A DNA stretch of 64,000 nucleotides from positions 1 to 64,000 of IMG/VR virus record IMGVR_UViG_3300009790_000004. One strand, written 5' to 3'. The translations under genes and the position numbers were made by a program. The first letter of the stretch is position 1, and each line of letters begins with the position of its first letter. Shown piece by piece: positions 5,560 to 22,837 of the stretch. This stretch comes from a virus. The notes beneath the pieces are model-generated. The model was not told the origin of the DNA. It made no database searches and saw only the letters and a list, made by a program, of their open reading frames with translations.

Positions 5560-8500
5560 ATGGCAGAATTTAGACTTGGCAGACTGAAGTTCAACTGGCG
5601 TGGAGCTTGGGCAGCGTCTACAGCATATGTAATAGATGACATCGTAAAGTACGGTGCTAGTTCATATGTGTGTACGACTAACCATACCTCCGATGCTAGT
5701 GCTACAGGCTTCCCTAACGACTCAGCAAAATGGAGTCTGCACCTTACAGGTCAGAACTTTGCTGGAGATCTAACGGTTAGTACTGGATATGTTGTCCAGG
5801 ATATCGTTAAAGAAGGTGGTAACCTATACATTTGTACAGCACAGAATACTTCAACGGGTATTCAAAGTAACTGGTACAGTAATGACTTCCCACAGTATTG
5901 GGATCTATACTCCGAGGGTGTAAACTTTAGGGGTGCTTTTGCTACTGATACTTACTATGGTATCAATGATGTAGTTGAATATGGTCCTCAACTATACCGT
6001 GTTACATCCCCATTCCAATCACCATCCGACCAGACTGCCACTGGTGTATCAACATCTCCACATGATATTGCAGGTGTTGGATCAGACGGATTCTACCCTC
6101 CTGCATCAAACTTTGCTTCATTCTCTAATGGAGTAACTGCTTTAGGAGAGTATGATTCTACTACAAGATATCAAAGAGGAGACCTCGTAGAATTTGGAGG
6201 TTCTGCTTATGTTGCTATAGGAACTAACCCTAAGGGTGATCAGCCAAACCAAAACCCAACTTTATGGTCTAACTTAGTTCAGGGTATTGGTACTGGATCA
6301 GGTGCTACTTATGATAAGACGGCACAGTATGCTAAGGGTCAGATTGTAACCTATGGTGGTAATACATATATTTCCGACCAATTATTAATTGATAACGATA
6401 AGCCTCCTATTGGTGCTGCTGTTACTAGTAGTGATGTTGGTGTTAATGGATGGTCTCTACTTGTTAGAGGACAGAATTGGAGAGGTACTTGGAGTAACTC
6501 TAATTACTACGAACTAGGTGACCTAGTTGAGTACTCAAGTTCTGCATATGTTTCTGTTGGTTCTTCTAACTTAAATGTACAGCCTGGTACTGCTGTTACC
6601 ATGTGGCAAGCATTTGCTATAGGTGATAGTGCAGCACTCTTAACAACCAAGGGTGACATTCTAACCAGAGATGGTACTGGTCCAACAAGACAGGGTATTG
6701 GTACTCAAGGTACTTACTTAAGGGTCTCCAGTACTGATGAGGTTGAATGGCAGTTTGCTGGACAAAGAACAAAAATATATTTCATTGACGCACAGCAAGG
6801 AGCTAATGCTAACAGTGGTTTAACTCCTGACGATGCATGGCAGAACATTTCTTATGCATCTACAGCAGCACAGAAAGTATCCAACATTACTAATGTTGTT
6901 TACGATAATACTTCTGGTATTGCAACGATTACTGCTGCTAACCACGGTCTCTTTGCAAGAGGGGACATTAGACTTGCTGGTATATCATTCACTTGTGCTC
7001 CTCAATATGCTGGTGTATCTACTCACATATTCCCAGATGGAACACAGGGATTCTACTTTAAAGTTGACAGTGTAACTGACTCTAATACTTTCGTAACCAA
7101 TGTTAGTATCTCAACTATCGCACACACTTATGTAAGTGGTGGTACTGTTACTGACTCTTCACCTGTTATTATTAAACTATCTGCTGGTGTATTCTCTGAA
7201 GAGCTACCAATTACTCTACCTAAGAACTTCTCCATTGCTGGTGATGTTCTAAGAGGTTCAACAGTTCAACCTGCTCCAGGTATATCAACTGAGGGTGTTG
7301 TTCCTAACGCTCGTCAGACCATGTTCTATGTGTCTGACTCTACTACAATTCAGGCGATCACAATGCGTGGTTTGCAGGGATTTGATTATGATGCTAACGA
7401 TCCTTACGAGACAGATAAGTGGCAGGTTAAGACTGGTGTTGGTTCTACTGCTTGTGGTGTATACTTCAGATTAAACCCATCCGATCCTATCCTATTCCGT
7501 TCACCATATATCAAGGACTGTACTGCATTCTCTGATGTTTGTCTTGATGGTACAGGACATGGTGGTGCAATTGGTGTCTTTATTGAGGGTGGTGTCCACA
7601 ACTTAGCTCCTGAAGGGGCAGGTGGTAAATCGATGGTGTTCGATGCCTTCACGAATATTCATTCGGGAGGTGTAGGATTCTTCCTAGAAGATGATGCTCT
7701 CGCTGAGATTGTATCTTCCTTCACATACTATTGTGCATTCGGATATGTATCTGATGATGGATCAGAGATTAGATCTCTATCAGGTAACAACTCTTACGGT
7801 ACTTACGGTGCTCTTGCTGTTGGATTCTCTACTCTAGAGACTCCTAGGTATGGTCGCATGTATGGTGATAAGATGACAACTGTTGTTGGTACTTACGCTG
7901 GAACTCTTGCTGTTGGTGCAACAATTCGTGGTACTGTTTCTGGTTGCCGTGCTGAACTAACTAATGATCAGTCTGCTTCGGACGCAATCTACTTCAGGTA
8001 TTTCGCTGGATTTGGTAACACATTTACCGATGCAGCTGACTATAACCCTGCCGTTGGTATTGGTACTAGCGTCTTCACTCCTGGTGAGTACTGTGAGGTT
8101 GACTCTGTTGGTGCTGGTGCTACTGGATACTTTAGACTTGGTACTGGTGCTAATGCAGCAAATGGTCAGGCAGATATCCTCTTTGAGGTTGCTGGACTCT
8201 CGACGACACCGATTGTTGGTGACGCATTAGGATTCACTACTGTTGGTATGGGATTCTCGGATACTAATACTTACATCTTGAGAGCTATAACAAATTATGC
8301 TGAAGGTACTAACTATACTCCAACTGCGGGTTCTTATAACCCATCAACAGGTATAGTACAGTTGACAGCTAATGCTCACGGCATGATGGTCGGAGATGAG
8401 ATTCAACTTACACCTAATTCATTGACATTCACTTGTGCTGAAGATGGTGGTAGTGCTCAGAAGACTTATCCTCGTACTACTGACCCACTCTATAAGACTT

Positions 8501-9546
8501 TAGTTGCTATCTCTGCAACCACTGTTAATACATTCTCCTTCCAGTGTCTCGCTAATATTCCTTCTACTAACACAACTGCTCATACATTCGTAAGTGCAGG
8601 AACCAATGCGGTTCAAAGAGCGAATGGTCGTGCAACAATTAATGTCGCACCTGGAAAAGGATCTGCTCCTAAGTCATTCGATAATCAAGAGTTCGCAATG
8701 AGAAGTAAGTTCTCCAAGTTGAGACTTACTGGTCATGACTTCCTATTGATTGGTACAGGTAACACTGCACAAACAAACTATCCAAACACTGATGAGAACA
8801 CTGCATCACAGGGTAATGAAACTACTGTAGTTAACTCTGGTAAGATCTTCTTCGTGTCTACTGACCAAGGAGGTAACTTCAGAGTTGGAGAATACTTCTC
8901 AGTTAACCAGTTAACTGGTGCTGCTACATTGGATGCTTCTGCTTTCAACTTGTCTGGTTTGACAGAATTGAGACTGGGTGCTATCGGTGGTCAGATTGGT
9001 GAAGCGATTAACGAATTCTCCTCTGATGAATTGCTATCAGGTGACTCTAACCAAGCATGTCCTACAGAGAAAGCAGTTCGTGGTTTCTTAACCAGAGGTA
9101 AGATGGATAATACATCTGGTATCTTGGTTCCACCTAGAGGTGCTCAAGCTGCTAGACCTACTGGTAACGCATTGCTTGAAGGTGGTCTTCGTTACGACAC
9201 TGACGCAAATGGTTACGAGTACTACAATGGTACTTCTTGGTTACCTGTTGGTGCTTACGGTAATATCGATGCATCTAATAACATCACTGCTAGTAACAAG
9301 CAACAGATCTTCTGTAACACATCAAGTACTGCATTCACAGTTACTTTACCTGCCTCTCCAGTTAAGGGTGATAGCGTTAGAATCTTTGATGTCGCCAAGA
9401 CATTTGACTCTAACAACCTAACGATTGGTAGAAACGGTAACCCAATTATGGGTGACGCATCCGACCTAACAGTTAATACTGAGGGTGCTGCGTTTGAACT
9501 CGTGTTCTACGATGGCACACAAGGATGGAGAATCATTACCATCTAA
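5560..9546 (+). CDS. Giant tail fibre with carbohydrate-binding-like repeats and beta-helix region
   Basis: The 1,328 residues start with about six repeats of 50-70 residues (residues about 14-350) of the type WRGAW..TAYxxxDIVxYGxxxYVC, resembling CBM5/12 chitin-binding modules. A short linker (TKGDILTRDGTG) leads to a region starting IYFIDAQQGANANSGLTPDD, typical of right-handed beta-helix fibres and pectate-lyase-like proteins. The C-terminus contains VPPRGAQAARPTGNALLEGG and a YYNGTSWLPVG motif common at fibre ends. No catalytic triad was recognised. It is probably a host-recognition fibre on the virion surface. Confidence 0.85.
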   Translation: MAEFRLGRLKFNWRGAWAASTAYVIDDIVKYGASSYVCTTNHTSDASATGFPNDSAKWSLHLTGQNFAGDLTVSTGYVVQDIVKEGGNLYICTAQNTSTGIQSNWYSNDFPQYWDLYSEGVNFRGAFATDTYYGINDVVEYGPQLYRVTSPFQSPSDQTATGVSTSPHDIAGVGSDGFYPPASNFASFSNGVTALGEYDSTTRYQRGDLVEFGGSAYVAIGTNPKGDQPNQNPTLWSNLVQGIGTGSGATYDKTAQYAKGQIVTYGGNTYISDQLLIDNDKPPIGAAVTSSDVGVNGWSLLVRGQNWRGTWSNSNYYELGDLVEYSSSAYVSVGSSNLNVQPGTAVTMWQAFAIGDSAALLTTKGDILTRDGTGPTRQGIGTQGTYLRVSSTDEVEWQFAGQRTKIYFIDAQQGANANSGLTPDDAWQNISYASTAAQKVSNITNVVYDNTSGIATITAANHGLFARGDIRLAGISFTCAPQYAGVSTHIFPDGTQGFYFKVDSVTDSNTFVTNVSISTIAHTYVSGGTVTDSSPVIIKLSAGVFSEELPITLPKNFSIAGDVLRGSTVQPAPGISTEGVVPNARQTMFYVSDSTTIQAITMRGLQGFDYDANDPYETDKWQVKTGVGSTACGVYFRLNPSDPILFRSPYIKDCTAFSDVCLDGTGHGGAIGVFIEGGVHNLAPEGAGGKSMVFDAFTNIHSGGVGFFLEDDALAEIVSSFTYYCAFGYVSDDGSEIRSLSGNNSYGTYGALAVGFSTLETPRYGRMYGDKMTTVVGTYAGTLAVGATIRGTVSGCRAELTNDQSASDAIYFRYFAGFGNTFTDAADYNPAVGIGTSVFTPGEYCEVDSVGAGATGYFRLGTGANAANGQADILFEVAGLSTTPIVGDALGFTTVGMGFSDTNTYILRAITNYAEGTNYTPTAGSYNPSTGIVQLTANAHGMMVGDEIQLTPNSLTFTCAEDGGSAQKTYPRTTDPLYKTLVAISATTVNTFSFQCLANIPSTNTTAHTFVSAGTNAVQRANGRATINVAPGKGSAPKSFDNQEFAMRSKFSKLRLTGHDFLLIGTGNTAQTNYPNTDENTASQGNETTVVNSGKIFFVSTDQGGNFRVGEYFSVNQLTGAATLDASAFNLSGLTELRLGAIGGQIGEAINEFSSDELLSGDSNQACPTEKAVRGFLTRGKMDNTSGILVPPRGAQAARPTGNALLEGGLRYDTDANGYEYYNGTSWLPVGAYGNIDASNNITASNKQQIFCNTSSTAFTVTLPASPVKGDSVRIFDVAKTFDSNNLTIGRNGNPIMGDASDLTVNTEGAAFELVFYDGTQGWRIITI

Positions 9547-9617: not shown

Positions 9618-10496
9618 ATGGCTAATTATCAAACATATAAAAAACTGCAGGGGGATCAGGCAATTCTAGCTGACTCGCTAGGTCCAGGACAGGTTTCTGG
9701 TCTATCGACTGGTATAATGTGCCGAAGTTTCTACTTCAACTGCTGTAACAACACTCCATGTAACGGAGGTTGCTGTTATCAGTGGACAGTTCCCAGTAAA
9801 GTAACAACTATTCAGTTTGAAATTATATCTGGTGGAGGATCAGGTGGTCCTGCTAGATGCTGTGGTGGTGGACCTGGTACTGGTGGTGGTGGCGGTGGAT
9901 ACGGCAGTAAGACAGTTTATTCAAACTGTGGTCACTTTACTGCTGGTTCTACACAATATACTATCTGTGCTGGTGCAAGTAGTAGGTGTTCATGTTGCGG
10001 ATGCTGTAATGGACGAACTGGTTGTGGATTCTACGGATGTCCTTCTTATGTCCAAGGTGGTGGACTAGGTACATTCTGTATGCAAGGTGGAACATACGGT
10101 GTTAAGCGTTGTACAAACAGTTGCTATACTTGTCTTAAGCAAAGTCAAAGAACTAACTGCTTTAACGGTTGTTCTGCATCATGGCCTGATGCACAAGATA
10201 AGTCATGTGCAATGAACCCTGAGAATGAATTCTATATTTGTGGTGTTTCTGGTGGTGAATTCAAGCATGTTAACTGTCACTCTGGTTCATGGTCAGTTGC
10301 TTCTACTCCTCCTGGTCCTTGGAGTGCTAACAGAAACTTTGGAACCAACCGTTGTGCTTATGGTAATGCTAGAGGATGTTGTTCAGCACAGTCCATCTGG
10401 CCTGGTGGTGGAGGACACTCTGGATCAACTCAAGGTGGACAATGTTGGGGAGACTGGGGTAATGGTGGTCTAGTTGTTGTTACAACTTGGTCTTAA
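9618..10496 (+). CDS. Cysteine- and glycine-rich virion protein
   Basis: The 292-residue protein has about 30 cysteines, many as CC pairs or CxC/CxxC clusters, and long glycine tracts. The N-terminus (MANYQTYKKLQGDQAILADSL) is polar and ordinary; there is no signal peptide. A central VTTIQFEIISGGGSGG segment looks like the start of a glycine-rich fibre-tip domain, and the end GNGGLVVVTTW is the beta-strand ending of such domains. It has its own late promoter and lies between fibre genes, so it is likely a tail-fibre tip or adhesin. Whether the cysteines form disulfides or bind metal is unknown. Confidence 0.75.
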   Translation: MANYQTYKKLQGDQAILADSLGPGQVSGLSTGIMCRSFYFNCCNNTPCNGGCCYQWTVPSKVTTIQFEIISGGGSGGPARCCGGGPGTGGGGGGYGSKTVYSNCGHFTAGSTQYTICAGASSRCSCCGCCNGRTGCGFYGCPSYVQGGGLGTFCMQGGTYGVKRCTNSCYTCLKQSQRTNCFNGCSASWPDAQDKSCAMNPENEFYICGVSGGEFKHVNCHSGSWSVASTPPGPWSANRNFGTNRCAYGNARGCCSAQSIWPGGGGHSGSTQGGQCWGDWGNGGLVVVTTWS

Positions 10497-10533: not shown

Positions 10534-11304
10534 ATGGCAAACATTACTAAGACAGTATTATTTCCTGTTCCTACGGTATGGATGGGACAGGCACAAGACA
10601 CAACAAGGACAGGAATCTGTACTTATGTTGGACCCCAGAACATAACTATCTGGTACGAAAATAAAGGAACTGATGCTAATCCTGATTGGCATCAAGAGCA
10701 TTCCTTTGAAACTGGAACATGCGATAGAGAGGCTCCTCCTGGAAGTAAGATAGTTACTTTGGATGCAGATAAGTATCCAATGAATGCTATTGCTGTCTTC
10801 GGTGGTGTAGAAGGTCCATATCAAATAGAAACTCCTGCAGGTCCAGACTCAGAACCTAATCCTATTCTTAATGACTATCTTCACTTCCAAGAAGTGTTTG
10901 ATATGCTTTCATTAGATTATGATCATGTTAATAATAAGTGGCCAAGAGATCCTGTCTTCTCTAGTGATGGTACAGAGTGGAATAATTCTCATAGTCAAGG
11001 AAATGGTCCTGCTGATTCTACAACATTTGGTTGGGATTGGGTGAGAGAAACTAGAAATAATCTTTTAACTCAGTCTGATGATAAGATTCCTACTGATGCT
11101 CCTTCTAATTTCCAGTCTCCTTGGAAAGATTATCGTCAGAAGTTGAGAGATCTTCCTAACACTTGGGTAGGTGTAGGTACAGAAACATATAAAATTGTAT
11201 GGCCACACGAACCATCTGATACTCCTAACAGTGGAGATGCTGCTGACACTAGTGATTTCTGGAGTGGTGGTACATCTAAAGCACCAGAGGATATAGATCC
11301 TTAA
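10534..11304 (+). CDS. Tail protein with tail assembly chaperone-like C-terminus
   Basis: This 256-residue protein starts with a beta-rich region similar in style to virion proteins (VWMGQAQDTTRTGICTYVG). Near residues 199-211 it carries PWKDYRQKLRDLP, which matches the W-x-x-YRQ-x-LRDLP signature of the phage tail assembly chaperone family. The C-terminus is acidic and disordered (APEDIDP). It probably assists or decorates the preceding fibre proteins. It has its own late promoter. Confidence 0.7.
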   Translation: MANITKTVLFPVPTVWMGQAQDTTRTGICTYVGPQNITIWYENKGTDANPDWHQEHSFETGTCDREAPPGSKIVTLDADKYPMNAIAVFGGVEGPYQIETPAGPDSEPNPILNDYLHFQEVFDMLSLDYDHVNNKWPRDPVFSSDGTEWNNSHSQGNGPADSTTFGWDWVRETRNNLLTQSDDKIPTDAPSNFQSPWKDYRQKLRDLPNTWVGVGTETYKIVWPHEPSDTPNSGDAADTSDFWSGGTSKAPEDIDP

Positions 11305-11386: not shown

Positions 11387-12208
11387 ATGTTTGAACCGAG
11401 TACTAATCGTAATGAACAAGTAATCAGGAATGTTGGACCTGATTGTAGGACAGTAGTGGTTATTGATAACTTCTATGAAAATCCTAGTGAAGTAAAAGAA
11501 CTAGCAGTACAAGCAGAAAAGTGGAGAAGAGATGAATTAATCAAGGGTCTTGCTGGAGAGAGATGTTATATAGAGACTAAAGAATTTAAGGAGAAGACTA
11601 AATCAGTATTCGATAAGTACTGTAAAGATAGTACTCTTTGGAAGCATTCTTTCTCTGATAGAATGTATGAATGTCATTGGGATAACGCAGGATTCTTATG
11701 TAATATAATGAATTCTAATAGTATTGGTGCTGATCCTTGGTTGTCCATACCACATCAAGATTCTTATTCAACTTCGTATATTGATAGTAGTGGTGGGTAT
11801 GTTGATGAACATGGTGTTACTCGTGGTATAGTTGGACAATGCACTCAATCTACTTTTGATTATAATCAATTTGGTGTTGTTATCTTTCTAAATTATCCTG
11901 ATGAATGTCAAGGTGGTACTAATTTATATTCTTATAAAGGAAATATGACTCTTCCTTATAATGTGATGGATTATATTGATAAACCAGAGATGTTTGATGA
12001 TATTGTAAAAACTCCTGATGATGTATGGAATTTTTTACGAGAATGGATGCGTGGAGGATACGATGGAGTATGGAAGGTTGAACATGAGTTTAAGATGGTG
12101 TATAATAGACTGATAATGTATGAATCTGATGTCTTACACTCCCCAAACGCTGACCCCACTATGTTTACTGATGGGTATGACCGTATAAATCAGGTTGTTT
12201 TTCTATGA
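11387..12208 (+). CDS. DUF6445-like 2OG-Fe(II) oxygenase-fold protein
   Basis: The 273-residue protein has a jelly-roll oxygenase pattern: PHQDS (His123, Asp125), GVVIFLNYP, GGTNLYSYKG, VLHSPN (His251) and DRINQVVFL (Arg266). It opens the sugar island and precedes the glycosyltransferase. A hydroxylation on a sugar, a fibre or a small molecule are all open. It is preceded by the AT-rich element at 11336. Confidence 0.7.
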   Translation: MFEPSTNRNEQVIRNVGPDCRTVVVIDNFYENPSEVKELAVQAEKWRRDELIKGLAGERCYIETKEFKEKTKSVFDKYCKDSTLWKHSFSDRMYECHWDNAGFLCNIMNSNSIGADPWLSIPHQDSYSTSYIDSSGGYVDEHGVTRGIVGQCTQSTFDYNQFGVVIFLNYPDECQGGTNLYSYKGNMTLPYNVMDYIDKPEMFDDIVKTPDDVWNFLREWMRGGYDGVWKVEHEFKMVYNRLIMYESDVLHSPNADPTMFTDGYDRINQVVFL

Positions 12209-12234: not shown

Positions 12235-13212
12235 ATGAGATCTAAAGTATTCTTTATTAATGGTGGAGCTGGCAGAGTAGTTGCATCCATCCCTGCATTA
12301 GAAAAATATGCTGAAACTCATGACGATTTTATAATTGTCTGTGAGGGTGGTATGAATTTCTACAGAGGACATCCTGTATTACATAAGTATGCCTATGATA
12401 ATTGGCATAAAGGATTGTTTGAAGATAAGATTAAAGACAGGGATTGTATGACCCCTGAACCATATAGAATATGGCACTATTATAATCAGAAGTGTAGTCT
12501 TGCTCAAGCATTTGATATAGAAATCAATGGGTTAGATGAACCAAGAGAATTACCAGCACCTAATGTTACATTAGCGAAAGGAGAGGGTATTCAAGGACTT
12601 CAGTTAGTAGATGAAGCAATAAAAACTACAGGAAAAGAAAAGGTTATAGTTATTCAACCATTTGGTAGAGGTATCATGGATACTGGTGGGTATATGTTTG
12701 ATCCCACCTCTCGTAGTTTCAATTTACAAGACATCAGTACAATCATTAATGATTTAAAGAAAGATTATTGTGTAATTGTGATGTCAGAGTTTCCTTTTAC
12801 TACAGAAGAGAAAGAATCAAAAGATGCATATATTCTCCCTAATATAGAAGACATTCGTATCTGGGCAGGGATTATAGACAGAGCAGATCATTTCTTAGGA
12901 TGTGATTCTGTTGGTCAACATATTGCTAAAGCAGTTGATAGTACTGTCACTGCTGTGATTGGATCAACATATCCTATTAATATATCCTATCCAGATGATC
13001 CAAAATTTGATATAATAGATCTCGGTGAAGATAAAAGAACTTTCTCTCCTATTAGGTTGACTATGGAGGACTATCAGGACATGCAGAATGATGAATGTAT
13101 GTCTATGACTGAAGAAGATATCGCTGCAGTGATTAAATCATGTAGAGATAGACTTGGCAAACCTGTCAAGAAAAAAATTGTACAAGCAGAAACTAAGGGG
13201 TTTGGAAAATGA
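12235..13212 (+). CDS. GT9 heptosyltransferase-like glycosyltransferase
   Basis: The 325 residues fit a GT-B fold of the heptosyltransferase family (GT9). The N-terminal domain begins FFINGGAGRVVASIPALEKY, equivalent to the GDxlxxlPalr start of GT9. The second domain has IVIQPFGRG, and the donor-site signature DHFLGCDSVGQHIAKA is close to the GxDSGxxHlAaA motif, followed by VIGSTYP. GT9 enzymes transfer heptose from ADP-heptose, and genes for that donor follow within 5 kb. It overlaps the carbamoyltransferase by ATGA. The acceptor is unknown. Confidence 0.75.
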   Translation: MRSKVFFINGGAGRVVASIPALEKYAETHDDFIIVCEGGMNFYRGHPVLHKYAYDNWHKGLFEDKIKDRDCMTPEPYRIWHYYNQKCSLAQAFDIEINGLDEPRELPAPNVTLAKGEGIQGLQLVDEAIKTTGKEKVIVIQPFGRGIMDTGGYMFDPTSRSFNLQDISTIINDLKKDYCVIVMSEFPFTTEEKESKDAYILPNIEDIRIWAGIIDRADHFLGCDSVGQHIAKAVDSTVTAVIGSTYPINISYPDDPKFDIIDLGEDKRTFSPIRLTMEDYQDMQNDECMSMTEEDIAAVIKSCRDRLGKPVKKKIVQAETKGFGK

Positions 13213-15023
13213 CACAGTGGATTGCTGGTATAGCAAGAGGACATAACGGTGGGGTATGTCTCCTTAAAGATGGTGAGATTGTATTTGCTGTAGAAGAGGA
13301 AAGAATTTCTCGTCGCAAGTATGATGGTGCTCCTCTTGCATCAATGATGTTGATCAAAGAGTATACTGATAGACTTGATTATCTTGTCATTGGTCATACT
13401 CAGATGGCAGCAAAAGATTGTCCTACATTAGAATATTCTTTTGAACCTGCTTATGTAGGACTTGCAAGAAAGTTAGGACTGATTGAAGATCGTAGTAATG
13501 ATGATCCAGCGAAGGGGCATTCCCAAGTTATTGATCTAGGAAATATACATCATAAGTTACATGCTGCGTGTGCATTTTACCGTTCTGGATTTGCGGATGC
13601 AACAGCTTTAGTAGTTGATGGTGCAGGTACATTCATTGACTTCACTATCATGGATAGACAGGATACAGTATGGGAAATTGAAACTATATTTGATTGCACT
13701 TATCCTAAGGAAATTAATACTGTATGGAAGCATCTAGGTACTAGAGGGCCTGCTACTACAGCAACCATCCCTGAAATGGAAGCAAAGGAAATATATCCTA
13801 CTGAGAAAGGAACCTTTGAGTATCTACTTGATGAAACTTGTGGTATTGTTAAAGCATATGAGGCAGTTACACAGTATTGTGGGTGGCATGCTATTGAAGC
13901 AGGGAAAACTATGGGATTATTTCCATACGGTAAACCCAACCCAGAAGTACCTAAGATCTTTAAGGAGTTTGGTACGGTAGATAGGAATGTAATGATTCCT
14001 ACCTATCCAAATGCAGGACATGTTAATATACATGAGTATCCTTTCCTTGATGAGCATCCAGATCCTGATGAAAAGGATTCAGATCTAACTAAGTATGAGA
14101 ATAGAAGAGACTTAGCGTATGCAGTACAGGTAGAGACGCAAGAAGCAGTTTTAAAACTCATTCGTAAGGCAGTTGAGATGACTGGTAAGAAGAATGTAGT
14201 ATTGTCTGGTGGATATGGATTAAATTGTGTTGCAAACTACTGGTATCTTGAACAGTTAAAGGATGAAGGCATCAATCTATTTGTAGAACCAGTAAGTAAT
14301 GATGCTGGTACTGCTATTGGAGCAGCACTTTATGTTTATTATAAAGCACTTCAACCTCATGAATTTTTTGAACCTAAACCTCAGATAGACACATTATATC
14401 TTGGACCTGAATACAATTATTCTTCAGAAGATATTCAGAAGGTAGCTGATAAGTATGGTGGTGTAGTTCAAGGTGCTAATCATGAGGATATAATTAAGTT
14501 GATTACCTCTGAGAATATTGTAGCAATGTTCCAAGGTAAGTCTGAGTCTGGTCCTCGTGCTCTTGGTAATCGTTCTATCTTATATGATCCTCGTGATCCT
14601 GAGGGTAAGGACTTTGTTAATACTGTAAAGCATCGTGAATATTTCAGACCATTTGCAGGTACTATTCTTCAAGAACATGTACATGAGTGGTTTGATCTTC
14701 GTGGTATGGATGAGACTCCATTCATGATGTATGCTGTTAAGTGTCAAGAAGGAATAGAAGAGAAGATCCCTGCTATCATTCATGTGGATGGTACATGTAG
14801 GATTCAAACAGTAACAGAAGAACAAAACAAAAATTACTATGAGCTCATCCAAGAATTCTTTAAACAGACTGGTTGCCCTATCCTCTTTAATACTTCCTTT
14901 AATTTGGGTGGAGAACCTCTGGTTGAAACACTCGAAGATGCTGTCAAGACTATTGCTAATAGTGACATTGAGTATCTTTATTTACCTGAGTATGGCAAGA
15001 TGATTACAGTAAAGGATGACTAA
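13209..15023 (+). CDS. NodU/CmcH-family carbamoyltransferase
   Basis: The 604-residue enzyme would transfer a carbamoyl group from carbamoyl phosphate (through carbamoyl-adenylate) to a hydroxyl. The N-terminal ASKHA-type domain shows GIARGHNGGVCLL, VEEERISRRK and VDGAGTFIDF, with NIHHKLHAACAFY supplying the metal-binding histidines and a VLSGGYGLNC segment. The C-terminal YrdC-like domain begins near GKSESGPRALGNRS and contains FRPFAGTI. The length is normal for the family. It is coupled to the GT9 gene and followed by the heptose genes, so a carbamoylated heptose is a plausible product. Confidence 0.92.
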   Translation: MTQWIAGIARGHNGGVCLLKDGEIVFAVEEERISRRKYDGAPLASMMLIKEYTDRLDYLVIGHTQMAAKDCPTLEYSFEPAYVGLARKLGLIEDRSNDDPAKGHSQVIDLGNIHHKLHAACAFYRSGFADATALVVDGAGTFIDFTIMDRQDTVWEIETIFDCTYPKEINTVWKHLGTRGPATTATIPEMEAKEIYPTEKGTFEYLLDETCGIVKAYEAVTQYCGWHAIEAGKTMGLFPYGKPNPEVPKIFKEFGTVDRNVMIPTYPNAGHVNIHEYPFLDEHPDPDEKDSDLTKYENRRDLAYAVQVETQEAVLKLIRKAVEMTGKKNVVLSGGYGLNCVANYWYLEQLKDEGINLFVEPVSNDAGTAIGAALYVYYKALQPHEFFEPKPQIDTLYLGPEYNYSSEDIQKVADKYGGVVQGANHEDIIKLITSENIVAMFQGKSESGPRALGNRSILYDPRDPEGKDFVNTVKHREYFRPFAGTILQEHVHEWFDLRGMDETPFMMYAVKCQEGIEEKIPAIIHVDGTCRIQTVTEEQNKNYYELIQEFFKQTGCPILFNTSFNLGGEPLVETLEDAVKTIANSDIEYLYLPEYGKMITVKDD

Positions 15024-15447
15024 AAGATTTATTCATCCCTTTGCACCAGTAAGAGTCTTTGTTAATGGTACATTTGATCTCTTACATCCAGGTCACATAG
15101 CATTATTAAACTATGCTAGATCTCTTGGTAATTATGTTATAGTTGGTATTGATACTGATGATAGAGTACGGGAAAAGAAAGGACCAACCCGTCCGATATA
15201 TAATCAGGAAGATAGAGGACTCATGCTTGTTGCTCTATCATCAGTTGATGAGGTTAGGTACTTCGATAGCGATGAATCTCTTGAGGCATTGGTAAAATCA
15301 ATCAAACCTGATATAATGGTGGTTGGTTCTGATTGGAAAGACAAGTCGGTCATTGGATCGTATTGGTCTTCAGATTTAAAATTCTTTGATAGGATAGAAA
15401 AGTATGCAACTAGCAAGACAGTACAATGTATTATTGATCGGGGATAG
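15016..15447 (+). CDS. Heptose-1-phosphate adenylyltransferase-like (HldE C-domain)
   Basis: This 143-residue protein of the cytidylyltransferase-like fold has the motif NGTFDLLHPGH (HxGH, residues 24-27), then GIDTDDRVREKKGPTRPI and the KPDIMVVGSDWK segment, closely following the C-terminal domain of bifunctional HldE (RfaE). That domain makes ADP-D,D-heptose from heptose-1-phosphate and ATP. A glycerol-3-phosphate cytidylyltransferase is the alternative, but the adjoining kinase and HldD favour HldE. It overlaps the kinase gene by 44 bases. Confidence 0.82.
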   Translation: MTKRFIHPFAPVRVFVNGTFDLLHPGHIALLNYARSLGNYVIVGIDTDDRVREKKGPTRPIYNQEDRGLMLVALSSVDEVRYFDSDESLEALVKSIKPDIMVVGSDWKDKSVIGSYWSSDLKFFDRIEKYATSKTVQCIIDRG

Positions 15448-16186
15448 CTGCACCGATGAGTGGGTGTACGGATCTTGTGATCGTTTAAGTCCTGAAGGAC
15501 CAATTCCTGTATTAAAATATGCAGAGAAGCAGACTGCTCCTGGTATGGCTGCTAATGTTAATGAGAATCTAAAGTCTCTTGGTATTAATGTTAATTTTAT
15601 AACAAACAAAGAAGAGATAAAGAAGACTAGGTATGTTGATCAGAGATCTAATCAACAGATCATGCGTCTTGATGTTGAACCAAAGGTAGAACCATTAAAA
15701 CAGCATCAAATTATTATGGCAGCAATGCATCAGCAGTATGATGCTATAGTTGTATCGGATTATAATAAAGGATTTGTTGATCTTGATTTGATTCAAGATC
15801 TTGCAAGAAAGAATCCAGAGATAAAAGTTTTTGTTGATACTAAGTCAACTACACCACCTAGTAGAGACAATATAATATACAAGATTAATCAGAAAGAGTT
15901 TGAAGCATTAAGAGAGGATCATATTCCTCGTTCTAGTAACTGTATAGTAACTATGGGTGCTAACGGTGCTCTATGGAATAAAGAACAGTTCCAAGTTCCT
16001 ATTGCCAGAACATTTGATGTGACTGGTGCTGGTGATACTTTCTTAGCAGCATTGGTATTTTACTACATACAAATTGATTCTATGGAAGAGTCAATTGCTT
16101 TTGCTAATAGAGCAGCAGCAAAGGCAGTAGAGAATCCTGGCACATATACATTAACAATGGAGGATGTAGATGAGATACTGCATTGA
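15404..16186 (+). CDS. PfkB-family heptose-7-phosphate kinase-like (HldE N-domain)
   Basis: The 260-residue ribokinase-fold protein matches the N-terminal half of HldE: VLLIGDSCTDEWVYGSCDRL, then SPEGPIPVLK and PGMAANVNENLKSLG (HldE has PGGAANV at this place), IVVSDYNKG, and DVTGAGDTF (208-212, catalytic Asp211). HldE-N phosphorylates D,D-heptose-7-phosphate at C1. It is about 60 residues shorter than the E. coli domain. The start lies inside the upstream gene in another frame, so the two HldE halves are separate, in inverted order and overlapping. Confidence 0.83.
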   Translation: MQLARQYNVLLIGDSCTDEWVYGSCDRLSPEGPIPVLKYAEKQTAPGMAANVNENLKSLGINVNFITNKEEIKKTRYVDQRSNQQIMRLDVEPKVEPLKQHQIIMAAMHQQYDAIVVSDYNKGFVDLDLIQDLARKNPEIKVFVDTKSTTPPSRDNIIYKINQKEFEALREDHIPRSSNCIVTMGANGALWNKEQFQVPIARTFDVTGAGDTFLAALVFYYIQIDSMEESIAFANRAAAKAVENPGTYTLTMEDVDEILH

Positions 16187-16520
16187 TATAGATGGTACTA
16201 TCTGTACTCCTGGTGAGGGGTGTGGCACATGTCAGTATGAAGGTGCTACTCCTAAGAAGGATAGGATAAAAGAGATCAATAAATTATATGATGAGGGACA
16301 CTACATTATATACTTTACTGCTCGTGCAATGGGTAGGAATAAAACTAAACCTCATGAGGAGGCAGCAAGGGTTGCAGAAGAGTTGCTGAGACCACTAACT
16401 AAATGTCAGCTAGATATATGGGGTTGTAAATATCATGAGTTACTTATGGGCAAACCACATGCAGACATCTTTATTGATGACAAGGCATGTCCTGATACTG
16501 TATTTTTTAATGAGGATTAA
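16170..16520 (+). CDS. HAD-superfamily phosphatase
   Basis: This 116-residue minimal HAD protein shows motif I DIDGT (Asp6, Asp8), YFTARAMG as motif II, and FIDDKA as motif IV. It lacks the cysteine zinc loop of typical GmhB. Small HADs of this type occur in capsule and LPS clusters. Its place between HldE-N and HldD suits a heptose-1,7-bisphosphate phosphatase step that GmhB normally performs; this is inferred from context. It overlaps the kinase end by 17 bases. Confidence 0.8.
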   Translation: MRYCIDIDGTICTPGEGCGTCQYEGATPKKDRIKEINKLYDEGHYIIYFTARAMGRNKTKPHEEAARVAEELLRPLTKCQLDIWGCKYHELLMGKPHADIFIDDKACPDTVFFNED

Positions 16521-16729
16521 TGGCACTATCTAAACAAACATTAGACTATTTACTTGAAGCGGAAGGTAGTATTAGATCAGCAGTTAAGTGTGCTGCTACT
16601 AATGAATCTCCTTTAGTTGTTTCTTCATTGTCAAAATTATTATATGATCTTGATCATATGAAAAGGTTTGAGGAACTGTCTGATATTATGGACCAGGCGA
16701 TAAGAGATAAGAAAGATGAAAGAGACTAA
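16520..16729 (+). CDS. Small helical hypothetical protein (69 aa)
   Basis: The start overlaps the upstream TAA by one base and the end overlaps the cupin gene by 14 bases. The product is predicted helical and charged (LSKLLYDLDHMKRFEELSDIMDQ), with no known domain. Context places it in the sugar operon; it may be a small partner protein. Confidence 0.6.
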   Translation: MALSKQTLDYLLEAEGSIRSAVKCAATNESPLVVSSLSKLLYDLDHMKRFEELSDIMDQAIRDKKDERD

Positions 16730-17078
16730 ACCAAAATTTGTTCCTAAGGGATGGGGTTGGGAGAAGTGGATTGCTAACTCCTCTGAGTATTGTGGTAAGC
16801 TACTTTTTATTAAGAGAAATCACAGGTGTTCGTGGCACTATCATGTACTAAAGGATGAGACCTTCTATCTACATTCAGGGAAGATCCATTTATTCTACGG
16901 TAAGACTGATAAGTTAGAGGATGCAAAGTCAATGATCCTAGAACCTGGCGACACTTTCCATTGCTGTAGGAAGACTAGACATCAGATGATTGCAATAGAA
17001 GACGCAGAACTATTTGAGTTCTCTACTCAGCATTTTGATGAGGATTCTCACAGGGTTACCCCTGGAGATACTCTTTAA
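16716..17078 (+). CDS. Cupin-domain protein
   Basis: The 120 residues form a single cupin with WHYHVLKDETFYLHSGK (motif 1, His and Glu metal ligands) and LEPGDTFHCCRKTRHQM (motif 2). It resembles the mannose-6-phosphate isomerase type II and sugar-epimerase cupins of surface polysaccharide clusters. The reaction is unknown. It lies at the end of the sugar operon and its 3' end overlaps the convergent hldD gene by 23 bases. Confidence 0.78.
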   Translation: MKETKPKFVPKGWGWEKWIANSSEYCGKLLFIKRNHRCSWHYHVLKDETFYLHSGKIHLFYGKTDKLEDAKSMILEPGDTFHCCRKTRHQMIAIEDAELFEFSTQHFDEDSHRVTPGDTL

Positions 17079-17841
17079 CTGTTTTAAAATTGTAGCCTTC
17101 TAGCCAACTCATGTCTGCTATGGTATAATATTGGTACTTACCCTTAAGAGGAGGTGGAAATGGTATTGGAGACAATTTCGACCCAGTTTTTAATGAAACT
17201 AGTTGAGCTACAGTGTCAATTGTTATTGGCGATCCTGTGCCAAGATCGAATATGCCAGAACCCGCAGTGTTCGATAACACTACATTCACCAGATCCCCAA
17301 CCCACACATAGTCACGATATATCTCGTCGCTCCCGTCAAATGGATGTATCTGACCAGTGGCAGCCTGCCATTGAAACTGACTGACTAGTGATGCCATAGT
17401 TCCTTTATGATATTCGCCTGATCCATATACATTAAAGTATCTAAACCCCTGAACATGCCTAAAGCGTTCTATATTATCTAAGACCCAGTAATCTACTGTT
17501 GTTTTAGATAATGCATAGTAGTTCAGGGGATTCATAATGGCAGTTGAACTCTGACTCCCATATACAGATGCTGAACTGGCATACTTAACAGGGATACCAT
17601 ACTCTATTGCCTTCTCAAATAATTTAATACTGAAATCAATATTATATTTGTAGATCATTTGAAGATTCTTGTTGGTCGTAGAGGATAACGCACCTTGATG
17701 GATGATCATATCAACTTCATCCCATCTATTAAATTTTTCTATAAATTCCTCACAGTTATCCAGATCAATTTCAAGGACATTTTCTAGTGACCTTACAAAG
17801 TGTTTTCCTATAAAACCACCTGAACCAGTTACAATATTCAT
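17056..17841 (-). CDS. hldD: ADP-L-glycero-D-manno-heptose 6-epimerase-like
   Basis: The 261-residue extended SDR has TGSGGFIG (5-12) for NAD(P), HQGALSSTT, YASSASVYG, a YxxxK pair (Tyr109, Lys113) and the HldD-specific series FRYFNVYG, YHKGTMAS (144-151), FDGSDEIYRDYVWVGD, GIFDLGTG and PFPPPLKGKYQ...ADM. This series parallels E. coli HldD almost block for block. HldD converts ADP-D,D-heptose to ADP-L,D-heptose. The frame is open to 17913, but ATG 17841 gives the natural N-terminus MNIVTG. It is the only sugar gene here on the minus strand. Confidence 0.88.
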   Translation of the reverse strand: MNIVTGSGGFIGKHFVRSLENVLEIDLDNCEEFIEKFNRWDEVDMIIHQGALSSTTNKNLQMIYKYNIDFSIKLFEKAIEYGIPVKYASSASVYGSQSSTAIMNPLNYYALSKTTVDYWVLDNIERFRHVQGFRYFNVYGSGEYHKGTMASLVSQFQWQAATGQIHPFDGSDEIYRDYVWVGDLVNVVLSNTAGSGIFDLGTGSPITIDTVAQLVSLKTGSKLSPIPFPPPLKGKYQYYTIADMSWLEGYNFKTVKEYLQG

Positions 17842-17911: not shown

Positions 17912-20900
17912 ATGGCTTTAAAACGATATACTCTCAGCGTTAGTAGTCCTGAGTATTGGGATAAAATTCATGGTGCTCTCACCGTAGACTCTAATGAGGA
18001 TGGGATCCCTGATAGAAAGATTACTTGTACAGATAGTAAAAGTACTAGTGCTACTCGTGGAACCTATGAATTAGATGAGACTGAAGCTGCTGAGATTGCA
18101 AAGCACCCACATGTTAAGTGGATTGAACTATCTTTAAAAGATAACCCTGATTCATTTCCAAAACCAGAGCCTACTATGCCACAGAGGTGGGCAAGTGATG
18201 TTAAGGCATATCGTGATTTAAGTTCACCTAATGGTCCTCCTACTAGTAGTCCAACTAGTGCAGAATTAAACAGAACTAACTGGGCTATTCCTAGAGTAGG
18301 TGTTGCAACTGCTGGACAGGTATGGGGTACTGATGTAGGATCTCTTGCTTCTATTGGAATTAATACTGATTACACATATGATGGTAGAAATGTAGATATA
18401 GTTATTCATGACTCTGGTGTTCTAGCATCACACCCAGAATTTTTAGATGAGAATGGTGTAAGTAGAGTAAAAGATATAGTTCTTGATGCTCCTTATCTTA
18501 TTGACCCAGACTGGTTCAACACTTATGGATATGTTTATACCAAGGGAGACGGAAGTACAGGTATTAACACTACAAATGCGATATCATGGTGGGAAGATAA
18601 CAACGCAAGGTCTACTGCCAAAGCACTCTTACCTACAATTAACATTCCTGCTAACTACACTGCGGACAGAGCAGTAGGAGTAGGTACTACTGGTTCTAAC
18701 AATCTTGCTAGTGGTCATGGTACTGGATGTGCTGGTATGGCTGCTGGTAAGAACTTTGGACTAGCATTTAAGGCAACCATTTGGAACATGCCAGCCATCA
18801 GTGACAATGTTGGTATGGATATTGAGACTTCATATGATATTATGAAGTTCTTCCATCAATATAAACCAATTGATCCTATCCTTGGTATTAAGCGTCCAAC
18901 CGTAGTCAATGGATCATGGGGATACCAGGCTGCACTTCCTGCTTCTGGTTCAGCATCATGGCAGTTTAAAAATAATACAGGTACGATTGGTCTACCAATT
19001 AATAGTAGTTCTGATCCTGTTGATGTTAGTGACATGATCTATGGTTTCAACAACCAAGTGATTGGTGCATGGAGATCATGGACATCATCTGCAAGAAATA
19101 ATGCTGTTGATACTGCTGGTGCTGAATTGATTGCTGCAGGTGTTATCTATGTGTCTGCTGCAGGTAATAACAACCAAAGAATTGGTACTGGACTTACTGA
19201 TACTCATAGATTAGATAGTGTTTCAGATAATTATTTTAATTCACAAGATTCTCGTACTGAATTTGGTGGTGTAAGAACTCCATGTGGATCTAGAGACTGG
19301 ATGAACCCATCTGGTATTGGATTCAATGAAACCACTCAATATCATCCTGTTATTAATGTGGGTGCTCTTGATGATTTCATTGAGTCTAATGGTAAGGAAA
19401 GAAAGGCAACATATTCTAACAGTGGTCCTGGTATTGACATCTATGCTCCTGCAGATGAAACACTCTCTGCTGGTATGCATAATATCACTGCTTATAGAGA
19501 CTTCCCAAGGTATGATAACAGTGGGTTCTTTGACTGTGCATTTAGTGGAACCTCTGCTGCTGCACCTGTAGTTGCTGGTCTTATGGCTCTGTATGCACAG
19601 AGAAATCCAGGTACAGGTGTTACTGAAGCAAAGAATTGGGTAACAGGATTTACTACTGATGGTACTCCTCCTACTCTTCGAGGTCAATCTGGTAGTACGA
19701 TCACAGGAAATGATGTACTGTTTGACCAATACTCTGATATCGATGAAGCAAACTTCTGGACAGGACAATTTAACCAGAAGACTGCAGATGGTAATGGTAC
19801 TGTTCTTGTTAGTTTCATTGATGTAGGATCTGGTATCTCTACCGATCTTGCAGGTGTTAATGAACCTAGTCTTACTGCTCCTGCTAATAATGCAACTGGT
19901 GTTAGTACTGAAGGATTAGTTCTTGCTTCAAGTGCTTACACTGCTATTGGTGACACAACAGTATCAGGTACTCTAAAAGCAGTTGAGTTCCAACTGTCTA
20001 GAGATGTAAACTTTAGTACGATTGATTGGCAATCTACTCCTAACAATGTTGCTATCTCTCAGACAACAACAGGACAGTTACTTGGATTCACTACTTACTA
20101 TGGAAGAGTAAGGCATGTATCTAATGCTGATGGTCAAGCATTTACTGGATACTATTCTACTTACTCTGCTGGTATAGTATCGTTTGCTACCTTAGGTAAT
20201 GCACCAGGTGTTCAGACACCATATATTATTGCTCCTACTAATGCATCTACTGTAGGTCAGAGATTTGGTATTGTACTAACTTCTAGTACTTACATTGCTA
20301 TTGATGGTGAGGCAGTTTCTGGTACACTTAAGGCAGTTGAATTCGAGGTCAGCACTGATCAAACATTTGTTGATGCTGCTCAGGTTGTTTATACTACTGT
20401 TGGTGCTAATGGAACTCCAAATTTAACTCAGACTATTAATATTGGTTTAGCTGCTGCTACTACATTCTATGTAAGATTGAGGCATGTATCTAATGCTGAT
20501 GGTAGTGAAGGTCAATCATTTACTTCACCTTGGTCTGTTGTAACATCCTTTGAAACTCCTGATCCATTCCAAGCAAGAGTGGGTCGTCTTGCATCTGTTA
20601 AGACTACATTAACTCAGGGTGTTGTTGAACCAACATTACTATTTGAGAGTGAGGATCTTCTTGAGGTCAGCATCTCTGTTGCAAACCAGAACGACTTTGA
20701 ATCTACATTCTCTATTGGTATTTCTAGTACTCCTGGATTCAAACCTAGTGATTACATTGCGTATGGTATTAACTTGACTAGAGGTGGTACTAGATTGATT
20801 GAGAAGGTTGGTATCAAACCAGGCGACAAGATATTTGTATCATCATTCGATCCTAATATATCTTTCCTAACATTTGCTACTAAGATTTACGATAAGATTA

Positions 20901-22837
20901 GTGATGTTTCTGCTGCTACACATGGTAGAAAAGAATCTTTAACTCTATCTTACAATCCACCATACCCAATCAATACAAACTTACAGATCCTTACTGCAGA
21001 GGAAGATAGTTTGATCACGGTTCATGCTACGAACCAAAACCCTGACATTACTGCAGCGTTATCTGTTGGTATATCATCTGGAGGAGTATCAGAGTTTCTT
21101 GATTCAGATTATATTGTTTTTGGTCTTAGACTATCACCACTACAAGATTTACAGTTTGATAACATCGCTCTTTCTAATGGACAGAGTTTGATTGTTCGTG
21201 GTTCTAAACCAAACTTAACCTTTGTTGCTCACTCTATTCCACAGGATCCAGGACCATCTGGTATTGGATCTAATCTTAATGTCAACACCAGTGGTATCAT
21301 TACTGCATCCGCATTTGCTGGTGATGGATCAGGATTGACTGGCGTTACTGCTGTTGGATCTGGTGTTAATGTTGAGGAAGATGGTACTGTAGTTGGTACT
21401 GCTGCTACAATTAACTTTGGAACTAACATTACTGCGACTGTTACTGATGGTGTTGCACTAATAGAGGCAGCAGATACAGTAGGTGTTGCTCAAACTGCAA
21501 ACAGTCTTGCTGATGGAGTTAGCGTTTCTTTTGCTACTAATGCAGATTACGCTGCTGTTGCTGGACTTGCTACAGTTGCTACCACTGCTACCACTGCTAA
21601 CTCTGCATTAAGTGCTACTACTGCTGGTACAGCAAGTCAAGTGGATTCGGCAGCAACAATCAATGTTACTAATAATATAACAGCACCGAAATTCATTGGT
21701 GATGGTTCATTACTGACTAACATTGTTGCTGCTGGTGGTGGTGTTATTGTTCAGGACAGTGGATCTGCTGTTGGTACTGCAGGAACAATCAACTTTGATG
21801 CTGGTATTGATGTATCACCTATCTCTGCTGGTATTGTTACTGCTACTATCCTTGAAGCACCTCGTGCTGCTCTTGCTGGTATCGCATCTGAAGCAATCGT
21901 TGCTGGTATTGCAACCTATGCTACTCTTGCTGGTCTTGCATCACAGGCAACCAATGCTACCTTTGCAAGCAATTCTAGTTACTCAACACTAACTGGTGCA
22001 GCAGACACTGCTAAGAATCTTTATACTTCACACGAAAATCCATACAAACCATTACCTGTTACTATCGGTACTAAGACCACAGAACATAGGTACATTGGTA
22101 TCAACTCTGCTTTATGTGTAAACATTCAAGGTTATGAGTCTCCTTACTTAAGATTTGAAGTAGGTCAGACTTATAGGTTTGAGAATGCATCACAGCAAGC
22201 AAACTATCCAATCAGAATGTACTACCATCATTCTGGTGTTACATCAGTTGGTATTGGTACTACCAATCCAAGTGAGATGACTCAGGGTGTTACTTATACT
22301 GGTTCGTACACTGAGGTAGAAGTTACTGAGGAGACTCCAGAGTTATTCTGGTATGGTGCTGGTGTTGGTACAGAAAAAGGATCTATGGGTAACTCTGTTC
22401 AGGTATTTAATCCTGAGATGCAGAGAGTTGCTAAGGTTGGTGAGTTTAAGAGCACTGCAGGACTTAAGACTTGTACTTATACACAATTCTATGAGGGTCG
22501 TGCTACTTCTTGGTACTTGAATACAAATCTAGGTGTTGGTAACAGTGACTATGCTCCTGGAGATCGCTCACATAATGTTAGTTCCATTGAGCAACAAGCT
22601 ACTGGTGTTTACACTGTAAACTTTGCTGATCCGATGGCAGATACTAATTATGCAGTCATAGGAATTGCATCTGGTACTAATGCATATCCAGGTGGTATTG
22701 TTAATTTAAGAATCAGTGACAGAACGGTTAACAATTTCACGCTTAGGGTGTATAATGGAATACCAGCGTTAGAGGACTTAGGTGAACTTGACATTTGTAC
22801 ATTCGGTGGACAAGACGGAGAAGAGACCTACATATAA
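17912..22837 (+). CDS. Tail fibre fused to a subtilisin-like serine protease
   Basis: This is a 1,641-residue protein. Residues about 155-570 form a complete S8 peptidase: VDIVIHDSG (Asp167), SGHGTGCAGMAAG (His269), YVSAAGNNN (oxyanion Asn419) and FSGTSAAAPVVAG (Ser548). After it come two fibronectin-like repeats sharing SGTLKAVEF and VRHVSNADG, then regions with the fibre motifs FAGDGSGLTG and FIGDGSLLTN, and a beta-rich C-terminus containing TNYAVIGIASGT. The first 110 residues could be an attachment or propeptide-like region; no signal peptide is seen. A late promoter and neighbouring fibre genes support a virion protein with a degradative activity. Confidence 0.88.
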   Translation: MALKRYTLSVSSPEYWDKIHGALTVDSNEDGIPDRKITCTDSKSTSATRGTYELDETEAAEIAKHPHVKWIELSLKDNPDSFPKPEPTMPQRWASDVKAYRDLSSPNGPPTSSPTSAELNRTNWAIPRVGVATAGQVWGTDVGSLASIGINTDYTYDGRNVDIVIHDSGVLASHPEFLDENGVSRVKDIVLDAPYLIDPDWFNTYGYVYTKGDGSTGINTTNAISWWEDNNARSTAKALLPTINIPANYTADRAVGVGTTGSNNLASGHGTGCAGMAAGKNFGLAFKATIWNMPAISDNVGMDIETSYDIMKFFHQYKPIDPILGIKRPTVVNGSWGYQAALPASGSASWQFKNNTGTIGLPINSSSDPVDVSDMIYGFNNQVIGAWRSWTSSARNNAVDTAGAELIAAGVIYVSAAGNNNQRIGTGLTDTHRLDSVSDNYFNSQDSRTEFGGVRTPCGSRDWMNPSGIGFNETTQYHPVINVGALDDFIESNGKERKATYSNSGPGIDIYAPADETLSAGMHNITAYRDFPRYDNSGFFDCAFSGTSAAAPVVAGLMALYAQRNPGTGVTEAKNWVTGFTTDGTPPTLRGQSGSTITGNDVLFDQYSDIDEANFWTGQFNQKTADGNGTVLVSFIDVGSGISTDLAGVNEPSLTAPANNATGVSTEGLVLASSAYTAIGDTTVSGTLKAVEFQLSRDVNFSTIDWQSTPNNVAISQTTTGQLLGFTTYYGRVRHVSNADGQAFTGYYSTYSAGIVSFATLGNAPGVQTPYIIAPTNASTVGQRFGIVLTSSTYIAIDGEAVSGTLKAVEFEVSTDQTFVDAAQVVYTTVGANGTPNLTQTINIGLAAATTFYVRLRHVSNADGSEGQSFTSPWSVVTSFETPDPFQARVGRLASVKTTLTQGVVEPTLLFESEDLLEVSISVANQNDFESTFSIGISSTPGFKPSDYIAYGINLTRGGTRLIEKVGIKPGDKIFVSSFDPNISFLTFATKIYDKISDVSAATHGRKESLTLSYNPPYPINTNLQILTAEEDSLITVHATNQNPDITAALSVGISSGGVSEFLDSDYIVFGLRLSPLQDLQFDNIALSNGQSLIVRGSKPNLTFVAHSIPQDPGPSGIGSNLNVNTSGIITASAFAGDGSGLTGVTAVGSGVNVEEDGTVVGTAATINFGTNITATVTDGVALIEAADTVGVAQTANSLADGVSVSFATNADYAAVAGLATVATTATTANSALSATTAGTASQVDSAATINVTNNITAPKFIGDGSLLTNIVAAGGGVIVQDSGSAVGTAGTINFDAGIDVSPISAGIVTATILEAPRAALAGIASEAIVAGIATYATLAGLASQATNATFASNSSYSTLTGAADTAKNLYTSHENPYKPLPVTIGTKTTEHRYIGINSALCVNIQGYESPYLRFEVGQTYRFENASQQANYPIRMYYHHSGVTSVGIGTTNPSEMTQGVTYTGSYTEVEVTEETPELFWYGAGVGTEKGSMGNSVQVFNPEMQRVAKVGEFKSTAGLKTCTYTQFYEGRATSWYLNTNLGVGNSDYAPGDRSHNVSSIEQQATGVYTVNFADPMADTNYAVIGIASGTNAYPGGIVNLRISDRTVNNFTLRVYNGIPALEDLGELDICTFGGQDGEETYI

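Follow-up and report, generated by a model that had tools for sequence, protein, structure and literature searches.

Synthesis of ADP-heptose takes five activities: isomerase, kinase, phosphatase, adenylyltransferase and epimerase. Phage genes of this kind have been described before. Several of those considered here were found to co-occur and were named lipopolysaccharide (LPS) genes of unknown function (Sullivan et al. 2010, PMC3037559), heptose genes were named in phage SynMITS9220M01 (PMC7378029), and viral heptose-activating enzymes whose role is not known were reported by Tang et al. 2024, as described in the commentaries on that work (PMC11461863, PMC11573728). The isomerase GmhA has been studied as an antibiotic target (PMC11056994). 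The island analysed here lies in a 64,000-nucleotide stretch (the window) of the marine cyanophage record IMGVR_UViG_3300009790_000004, which comprises 109,782 bases and may be incomplete. Between 11.4 and 17.9 kb its genes encoded, in order, a DUF6445 protein, a glycosyltransferase (GT), a carbamoyltransferase, an adenylyltransferase, a kinase, a HAD phosphatase, a 69-residue open reading frame (ORF) and a cupin, with an HldD-like short-chain dehydrogenase/reductase (SDR) next on the minus strand (Table 1). The island itself is not new; its completeness and its probable target are.

On balance, we favour the reading that the island is a self-sufficient ADP-heptose supply joined to a module that decorates the phage tail fibre with a carbamoylated glycan. 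The evidence comprised the family and fold of each enzyme, the conserved catalytic residues, the gene order and the link of the cupin to two heptose pathways, and from it we infer the activities, the order of the steps and the acceptor. The cupin would convert sedoheptulose-7-phosphate to manno-heptose-7-phosphate, the PfkB kinase would form heptose 1,7-bisphosphate, the mini-HAD protein would take off the 7-phosphate, the adenylyltransferase would produce ADP-D,D-heptose and the HldD-like SDR would turn this into ADP-L,D-heptose. The GT9-like enzyme would then attach heptose to a protein of the fibre or its tip, perhaps at residues that the upstream 2-oxoglutarate (2OG) oxygenase has hydroxylated, and the carbamoyltransferase would modify one hydroxyl of the fibre glycan.

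The order GT, carbamoyltransferase, adenylyltransferase, kinase, HAD, cupin and inverted HldD was also present in P-SSM2, S-CAM1, S-CAM3, Sf-FS3 and S-SSM7. Of 80 viral contigs retrieved with the GT, the longer ones had it too. The block is genuine and conserved, with a gene order that recurs beyond chance. An earlier, sequence-only reading had proposed ADP-heptose synthesis together with a GT9-type transferase, which the predicted families and folds supported, and every ORF that it named was present where it had been placed; its gene list was incomplete, omitting the carbamoyltransferase and the 69-residue ORF inside the block.

By sequence comparison, three of the predicted enzymes were closest to the two halves of HldE and to HldD. 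The best NCBIfam model for the 143-residue adenylyltransferase, which has the HxGH motif, was rfaE_dom_II, ahead of the TagD type (3e-16). The 260-residue kinase had a PfkB fold and kept the GAGD catalytic motif; it was approximately 55 residues shorter than its top model, rfaE_dom_I, and its best match in the Protein Data Bank (PDB) was HldA (4e84). These results agreed with the earlier view that the HldE adenylyltransferase and kinase are encoded here by separate genes. The SDR matched heptose_epim at 2e-55, compared to 3e-11 for galE, and its best PDB matches were HldD (1eq2 and 2x6t); all three motifs on which the original HldD assignment was based aligned with E. coli HldD. Residues Y109 and K113 (YxxxK) and K146, which we take to be the equivalent of the second catalytic residue of HldD, Lys178 in E. 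coli numbering, were invariant or nearly so in 20 phage copies. A second SDR (positions 24552-25319), a nucleotide-sugar epimerase that shares PHROG 540 with the HldD-like gene, matched HldD more weakly (8e-14). The pathway had also been tied to the phage's own talC, a gene that is indeed in the window, but its presence says little because all 11 of the 11 related cyanophages tested carried it.

The sequence-only reading stated that only GmhA was missing. This held for the GmhA family (SIS fold), which had no match across the possibly incomplete 109,782-base record, but for that step there is a strong candidate in the 120-residue cupin, whose likely role the earlier reading had missed. GmhA-family proteins were also not found in seven complete cyanophages or in 20 further viral records, and Synechococcus elongatus, a freshwater cyanobacterium included with the control genomes, had no GmhA-family match. 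The metal site of the cupin (HxH...E...H) was intact, with H41, H43, E48 and H89 invariant in 22 sequences. D-lyxose, L-ribose and lyxose/mannose isomerases led the PDB matches of its profile, and the phosphomannose isomerase (PMI)-like domain of E. coli CpsB had H43, E48, H89 and E101 in common with it, comprising metal-site and C-terminal residues. Bacterial relatives matched PF01050 (mannose-6-phosphate isomerase C-terminal; 2e-6, above the cut-off) and GMP_PMI. In Gemmatimonadota (L424-L443; L-numbers are our own handles) 98 of 121 genomes encoded a related cupin, almost always in single copy, and it adjoined a sugar-1-phosphate nucleotidyltransferase at three of the loci inspected; it is possibly a free-standing PMI. 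The cysteine dioxygenase label that the cupin bears in phage records had no backing from Pfam, NCBIfam or the PDB and was rejected.

Three scans with the cupin sequence alone yielded 233 viral loci, in which genes were counted within approximately 8 kb; the viral contigs used in our comparisons were often fragments. HldE- or HddA/HddC-type genes were found at 212 of these loci and a SIS/GmhA-like gene at six. The effective number of loci is below 233 because many are close relatives; once near-identical cupins had been removed, 108 of 121 loci had HldE- or HddA/HddC-type genes. Where flanks were adequate, a heptose enzyme ORF lay no more than 100 bp from the cupin in 178 of 198 loci. In phage Bellamy (L257) the cupin stood between HddA and HddC of a GDP-heptose-type pathway, and in three marine viral contigs (L219:6974-7762, L220:2854-3642 and L252:6974-7762) it was fused in one frame to a heptose-1-phosphate adenylyltransferase. 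Since the HldE and HddA/HddC pathways have no steps in common beyond those of isomerase and phosphatase, and another protein is the candidate for the phosphatase, the cupin is likely to be the enzyme that converts sedoheptulose-7-phosphate to manno-heptose-7-phosphate in place of GmhA. A search of the open-access literature for a cupin sedoheptulose isomerase found no paper.

Some loci speak against this assignment. In SynMITS9220M01 (L256), which has the order HddA-cupin-HddC, there was another HddA-like kinase as well as a GmhA-like gene; as in four strong viral matches, the cupin there coexists with a GmhA-like gene that adjoins an HddA-like kinase. Furthermore, several cupin-bearing contigs lacked an HldE-C-type gene. 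The cupin could instead be an epimerase or another sugar-modifying or structural cupin, with host GmhA supplying the first step. The functional diversity of the cupin family, the remoteness of the similarity to solved isomerases (E = 7e-4 to 2e-2) and the few phages with both genes are in keeping with such a role. We nevertheless regard it as rather unlikely, given the PMI-type relatives, the fusions to the adenylyltransferase, the negative S. elongatus result and the association of the cupin with two pathways that have only those two steps in common.

The HAD protein had been taken for GmhB. None of the GmhB (HAD-IIIA) models matched this 116-residue protein, whose best family was EcbF/BcbF and whose best PDB matches by profile search, 9iqw and 1xpj, were EcbF/BcbF-type capsule proteins. 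It is predicted to replace GmhB in function without being its orthologue, and the earlier assignment stands only in that sense. Among the HldE-bearing cupin loci (n = 203), 124 had the HAD gene only, 44 had GmhB only, three had both and 32 had neither. Most related phage records, as well as PHROGs, label the mini-HAD as phosphoheptose isomerase, and on sequence grounds this label appears to be wrong. The phosphoheptose isomerase of P-SSM2, S-CAM and other phages was accordingly rejected as a true GmhA, the protein being the mini-HAD; unlike these, the one in SynMITS9220M01 was a real GmhA-like SIS protein.

The call of a GT9 heptosyltransferase was weak by sequence (4e-4), but the fold was nearest to GT9 enzymes: the model of the 325-residue GT (pLDDT 81) matched 3tov (4e-10), TibC with ADP-heptose (7e-9), WaaC (1e-7) and WaaF (2e-7). 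The donor-site DxxxxH motif was kept (D224, H229), whereas the position of WaaC Asp13 was occupied by Arg in all 125 of the 125 sequences covering the site. D94, kept in 127 of 129 sequences, is possibly an alternative catalytic base, which is speculation. As modelled, the GT represents a distinct phage subfamily remotely related to GT9. Distant scans starting from L172 and L171 returned nothing or near-copies. The 604-residue carbamoyltransferase matched 7xb6 (6e-58), GdmN and TobZ in the PDB and may carbamoylate the heptose; 7-O-carbamoyl-heptose occurs in the Pseudomonas LPS core. Extra copies of the carbamoyltransferase and of DUF6445/2OG oxygenase genes were frequent in related viral contigs. 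Up to four carbamoyltransferase copies per island were present in L044, L048, L065 and others, some of them matching over only approximately 400 residues.

Fibre genes flanked the island on both sides, as previously observed, with a tail fibre gene upstream and a protease-fibre chimera downstream. A scan with the fibre-assembly gene alone gave 64 loci with enough flank; the GT was present at 51 of them and the carbamoyltransferase at 50, and the 13 loci with neither formed one group. Relatives of the glycine-rich protein occurred at 49 of 64 module loci, and marine phages kept the order glycine-rich protein, fibre-assembly protein, GT and carbamoyltransferase down to approximately 25% identity. 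In the DUF6445 protein, H123, D125, H251 and R266 (HxD...H...R) were invariant in 43 sequences; its modelled fold (pLDDT 88) matched GriE, P3H1, OGFOD1 and P4H and, with the triad, is consistent with hydroxylation of the acceptor. In Vibrio phage SBP1 and Aeromonas phage HJ05 the relatives of the GT had tail-fibre, tail-tip and sheath genes around them, and the stretches fetched yielded no heptose gene nearby. Vibrio and Aeromonas hosts produce ADP-heptose for LPS. Cyanobacterial LPS has been reported to be without heptose and Kdo (PMC4390846). This pattern agrees with the donor pathway being carried by a phage only where the host cannot supply ADP-heptose. The preference already expressed for virion fibres over host LPS was strengthened by the gene order in distant phages, the Vibrio and Aeromonas GT relatives and the upstream 2OG fold.

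The fibre as target has to be weighed against several points. Relatives of HldE, HldD, HAD and the cupin were also found in polysaccharide-type clusters without this GT (S-SM2, P-TIM68, S-T4), so that heptose can serve other glycans. The Arg at the WaaC Asp13 position means that the GT may depart from WaaC in its mechanism, donor or acceptor, the 2OG-fold matches of DUF6445 were modest (best E = 5e-4, to GriE), and genes kept in one order need not act on one substrate. The same ADP-heptose pathway might serve host LPS or surface polysaccharide during infection, for example to block superinfection. This would suit the polysaccharide-type clusters, which hold several glycosyltransferases, and the published interpretation of such cyanophage and pelagiphage genes as LPS genes (PMC3037559, PMC7029224). 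It is unlikely to apply here: even phages that are only distantly related place the GT and carbamoyltransferase after the fibre-assembly gene, relatives of the GT in other phages have tail genes as neighbours, the genes identified inside the block included neither flippase nor ligase nor polymerase, and the reported lack of heptose in cyanobacterial LPS (PMC4390846) disfavours that target.

Another alternative is that the enzymes yield a different NDP-sugar, with another heptose isomer or nucleotide, for use by the GT. None of the three core enzymes reached its curated NCBIfam cut-off (for the SDR, 188 bits compared to 274.6 for TIGR02197), the adenylyltransferase had IEKYATSKT where the canonical C-terminal (F/L)xxGxSTT motif is expected, and in the S-T4 and Sf-CH5 loci HldD was not detected beside the adenylyltransferase, kinase, HAD and cupin. 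Against these stand top matches that were consistently HldE and HldD and the invariance of the HldD-specific catalytic Lys, which make a different product quite improbable. That the island is non-functional cargo, an idea raised as stuffer DNA for cyanophage LPS clusters (PMC3037559), is scarcely credible in view of the intact ORFs, kept order and invariant catalytic residues over dozens of divergent phages; the 73- and 42-residue adenylyltransferase genes recorded in S-CAM1 and S-CAM3, a truncation that would break the pathway, were rejected when tblastn and ORF analysis found both to be full length in the DNA.

Returning to the favoured ADP-heptose and fibre reading, we extend it tentatively, with somewhat less than even confidence, to the proposal that the marine-phage cupin family is an unrecognised sedoheptulose-7-phosphate isomerase for ADP- and GDP-heptose pathways, non-orthologous to GmhA, and that here it supplies heptose that is placed on tail fibres and carbamoylated while the host surface has none. 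What is new is a candidate for the isomerase and one for the replaced phosphatase, a carbamoyltransferase that belongs to the module, a connection with the tail-fibre module and a GT subfamily in which Arg stands at the Asp13 position. If the proposal is true, there is a second type of enzyme for isomerizing sedoheptulose-7-phosphate, a reaction that the papers found assign to GmhA only, and phages build a host-foreign glycan on their own adhesins. The viral heptose enzymes of Tang et al. 2024, as the commentaries present them, would gain a specific purpose that can be tested, together with a candidate enzyme for the first step that had been missing. The analysis also corrects the phosphoheptose isomerase and cysteine dioxygenase labels of many cyanophage records.

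Table 1. Features of the island and its surroundings, with positions in the window.
Feature	Position	Strand	Match or motif
Tail fibre protein, upstream of island	5560..9546	+	phrog_9851 tail fiber 7e-244
Glycine/cysteine-rich protein, candidate for the fibre tip and for the acceptor	9618..10496	+	Gly_rich_2 2.5e-5 (Pfam); phrog_4205
Tail-fibre assembly/chaperone-like protein	10534..11304	+	Phage_tail_APC 7e-10 (Pfam); PHROG tail fiber assembly 9e-9
DUF6445, predicted 2OG-Fe(II) oxygenase, prolyl-hydroxylase-like fold	11387..12208	+	HxD...H...R; model pLDDT 88
GT9-like glycosyltransferase, predicted heptosyltransferase	12235..13212	+	model pLDDT 81 matches GT9 3tov, TibC, WaaC, WaaF
NodU/TobZ-type O-carbamoyltransferase	13209..15023	+	Carbam_trans_C 2e-61, Carbam_trans_N 1e-26 (Pfam)
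Predicted D,D-heptose-1-phosphate adenylyltransferase, HldE C-half type	15016..15447	+	TIGR02199 rfaE_dom_II 2e-31; HPGH motif
Predicted D,D-heptose-7-phosphate kinase, HldE N-half type, shortened	15404..16186	+	TIGR02198 rfaE_dom_I 8e-42; DVTGAGDTF
Mini-HAD phosphatase, EcbF/BcbF-like, predicted GmhB replacement	16170..16520	+	best family EcbF/BcbF 2e-4
69-residue ORF, role not assigned	16520..16729	+	phrog_1179 3e-13
Cupin, predicted to replace GmhA as sedoheptulose-7-phosphate isomerase; phage records label it cysteine dioxygenase	16716..17078	+	
Predicted HldD-type ADP-heptose 6-epimerase	17056..17841	-	TIGR02197 heptose_epim 2e-55; PDB 1eq2 3e-38
Protease-fibre chimera, downstream of island	17912..22837	+	phrog_3677 protease; phrog_30742 tail fiber
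Second 2OG-Fe(II) oxygenase	22853..23407	+	phrog_81 4e-20
Transaldolase talC, interconverts sedoheptulose-7-phosphate	45239..45913	+	PF00923 5e-53

The downstream chimera (1641 residues), divergent from the HldD gene, had a protease-like N-terminal part and a tail-fibre C-terminal part. The glycine-rich protein was unusually rich in Cys and Gly and was present in up to three copies in related phages. T4-type late promoters (TATAAATA) were fewer in the window than expected (three compared to 7.6), a promoter scan was at chance level, and no Rfam families or tRNA were found. A cyanobacterial source of HldD was rejected, with no cyanobacterium among the 80 best genome contigs; the two nearest to the window HldD (L089 and L090) carried the phage island. 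Phage heptose islands lay on four contigs (L089, L090, L095 and L096) deposited as Rhodobacteraceae, Euryarchaeota and Neomarinimicrobiota metagenome-assembled genomes, and these are probably viral contigs binned into such genomes; L095 was rejected as a bacterial heptose cluster, its neighbours resembling phage structural proteins.

Compared with known systems, the heptose/LPS genes of P-SSM2, S-SSM7, S-SM2 and SynMITS9220M01 (PMC3037559, PMC7378029) belong to the same gene clusters, T4-GC 303-308, and were labelled as LPS genes, the HAD as phosphoheptose isomerase and the cupin as cysteine dioxygenase or nucleotidyltransferase. Caulobacter phage Cr30 (L262) similarly bears a heptose kinase and isomerase, but of the HddA type with a true GmhA, and had no cupin in the stretch read. 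The NodU/TobZ/GdmN O-carbamoyltransferases share both domains with the phage enzyme in strong matches, whereas the phage enzyme is multicopy in some phages. With the protein heptosyltransferases TibC and Aah and with GT9 WaaC and WaaF the phage GT has in common a GT-B fold and the C-terminal DxxxxH donor-site motif, and TibC, itself a protein heptosyltransferase, was among its best fold matches; it differs in its approximately 10% identity, in the Arg for WaaC Asp13 and in adjoining fibre genes, whereas their genes adjoin autotransporter or LPS genes. The cupin resembles the type II PMI cupins (the C-terminal part of CpsB/AlgA GMP-PMI) and D-lyxose isomerase in its metal-site residues and in the proposed ketose to manno-aldose chemistry; in contrast to the CpsB/AlgA PMI, it is free-standing or adenylyltransferase-fused, inside heptose operons. 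Finally, the E. coli-type ADP-heptose pathway shares with the island the kinase, adenylyltransferase and epimerase families and the HldD catalytic residues; in the phage version HldE is split into two genes, a cupin apparently takes the place of GmhA, and an EcbF/BcbF-like mini-HAD apparently takes that of GmhB.

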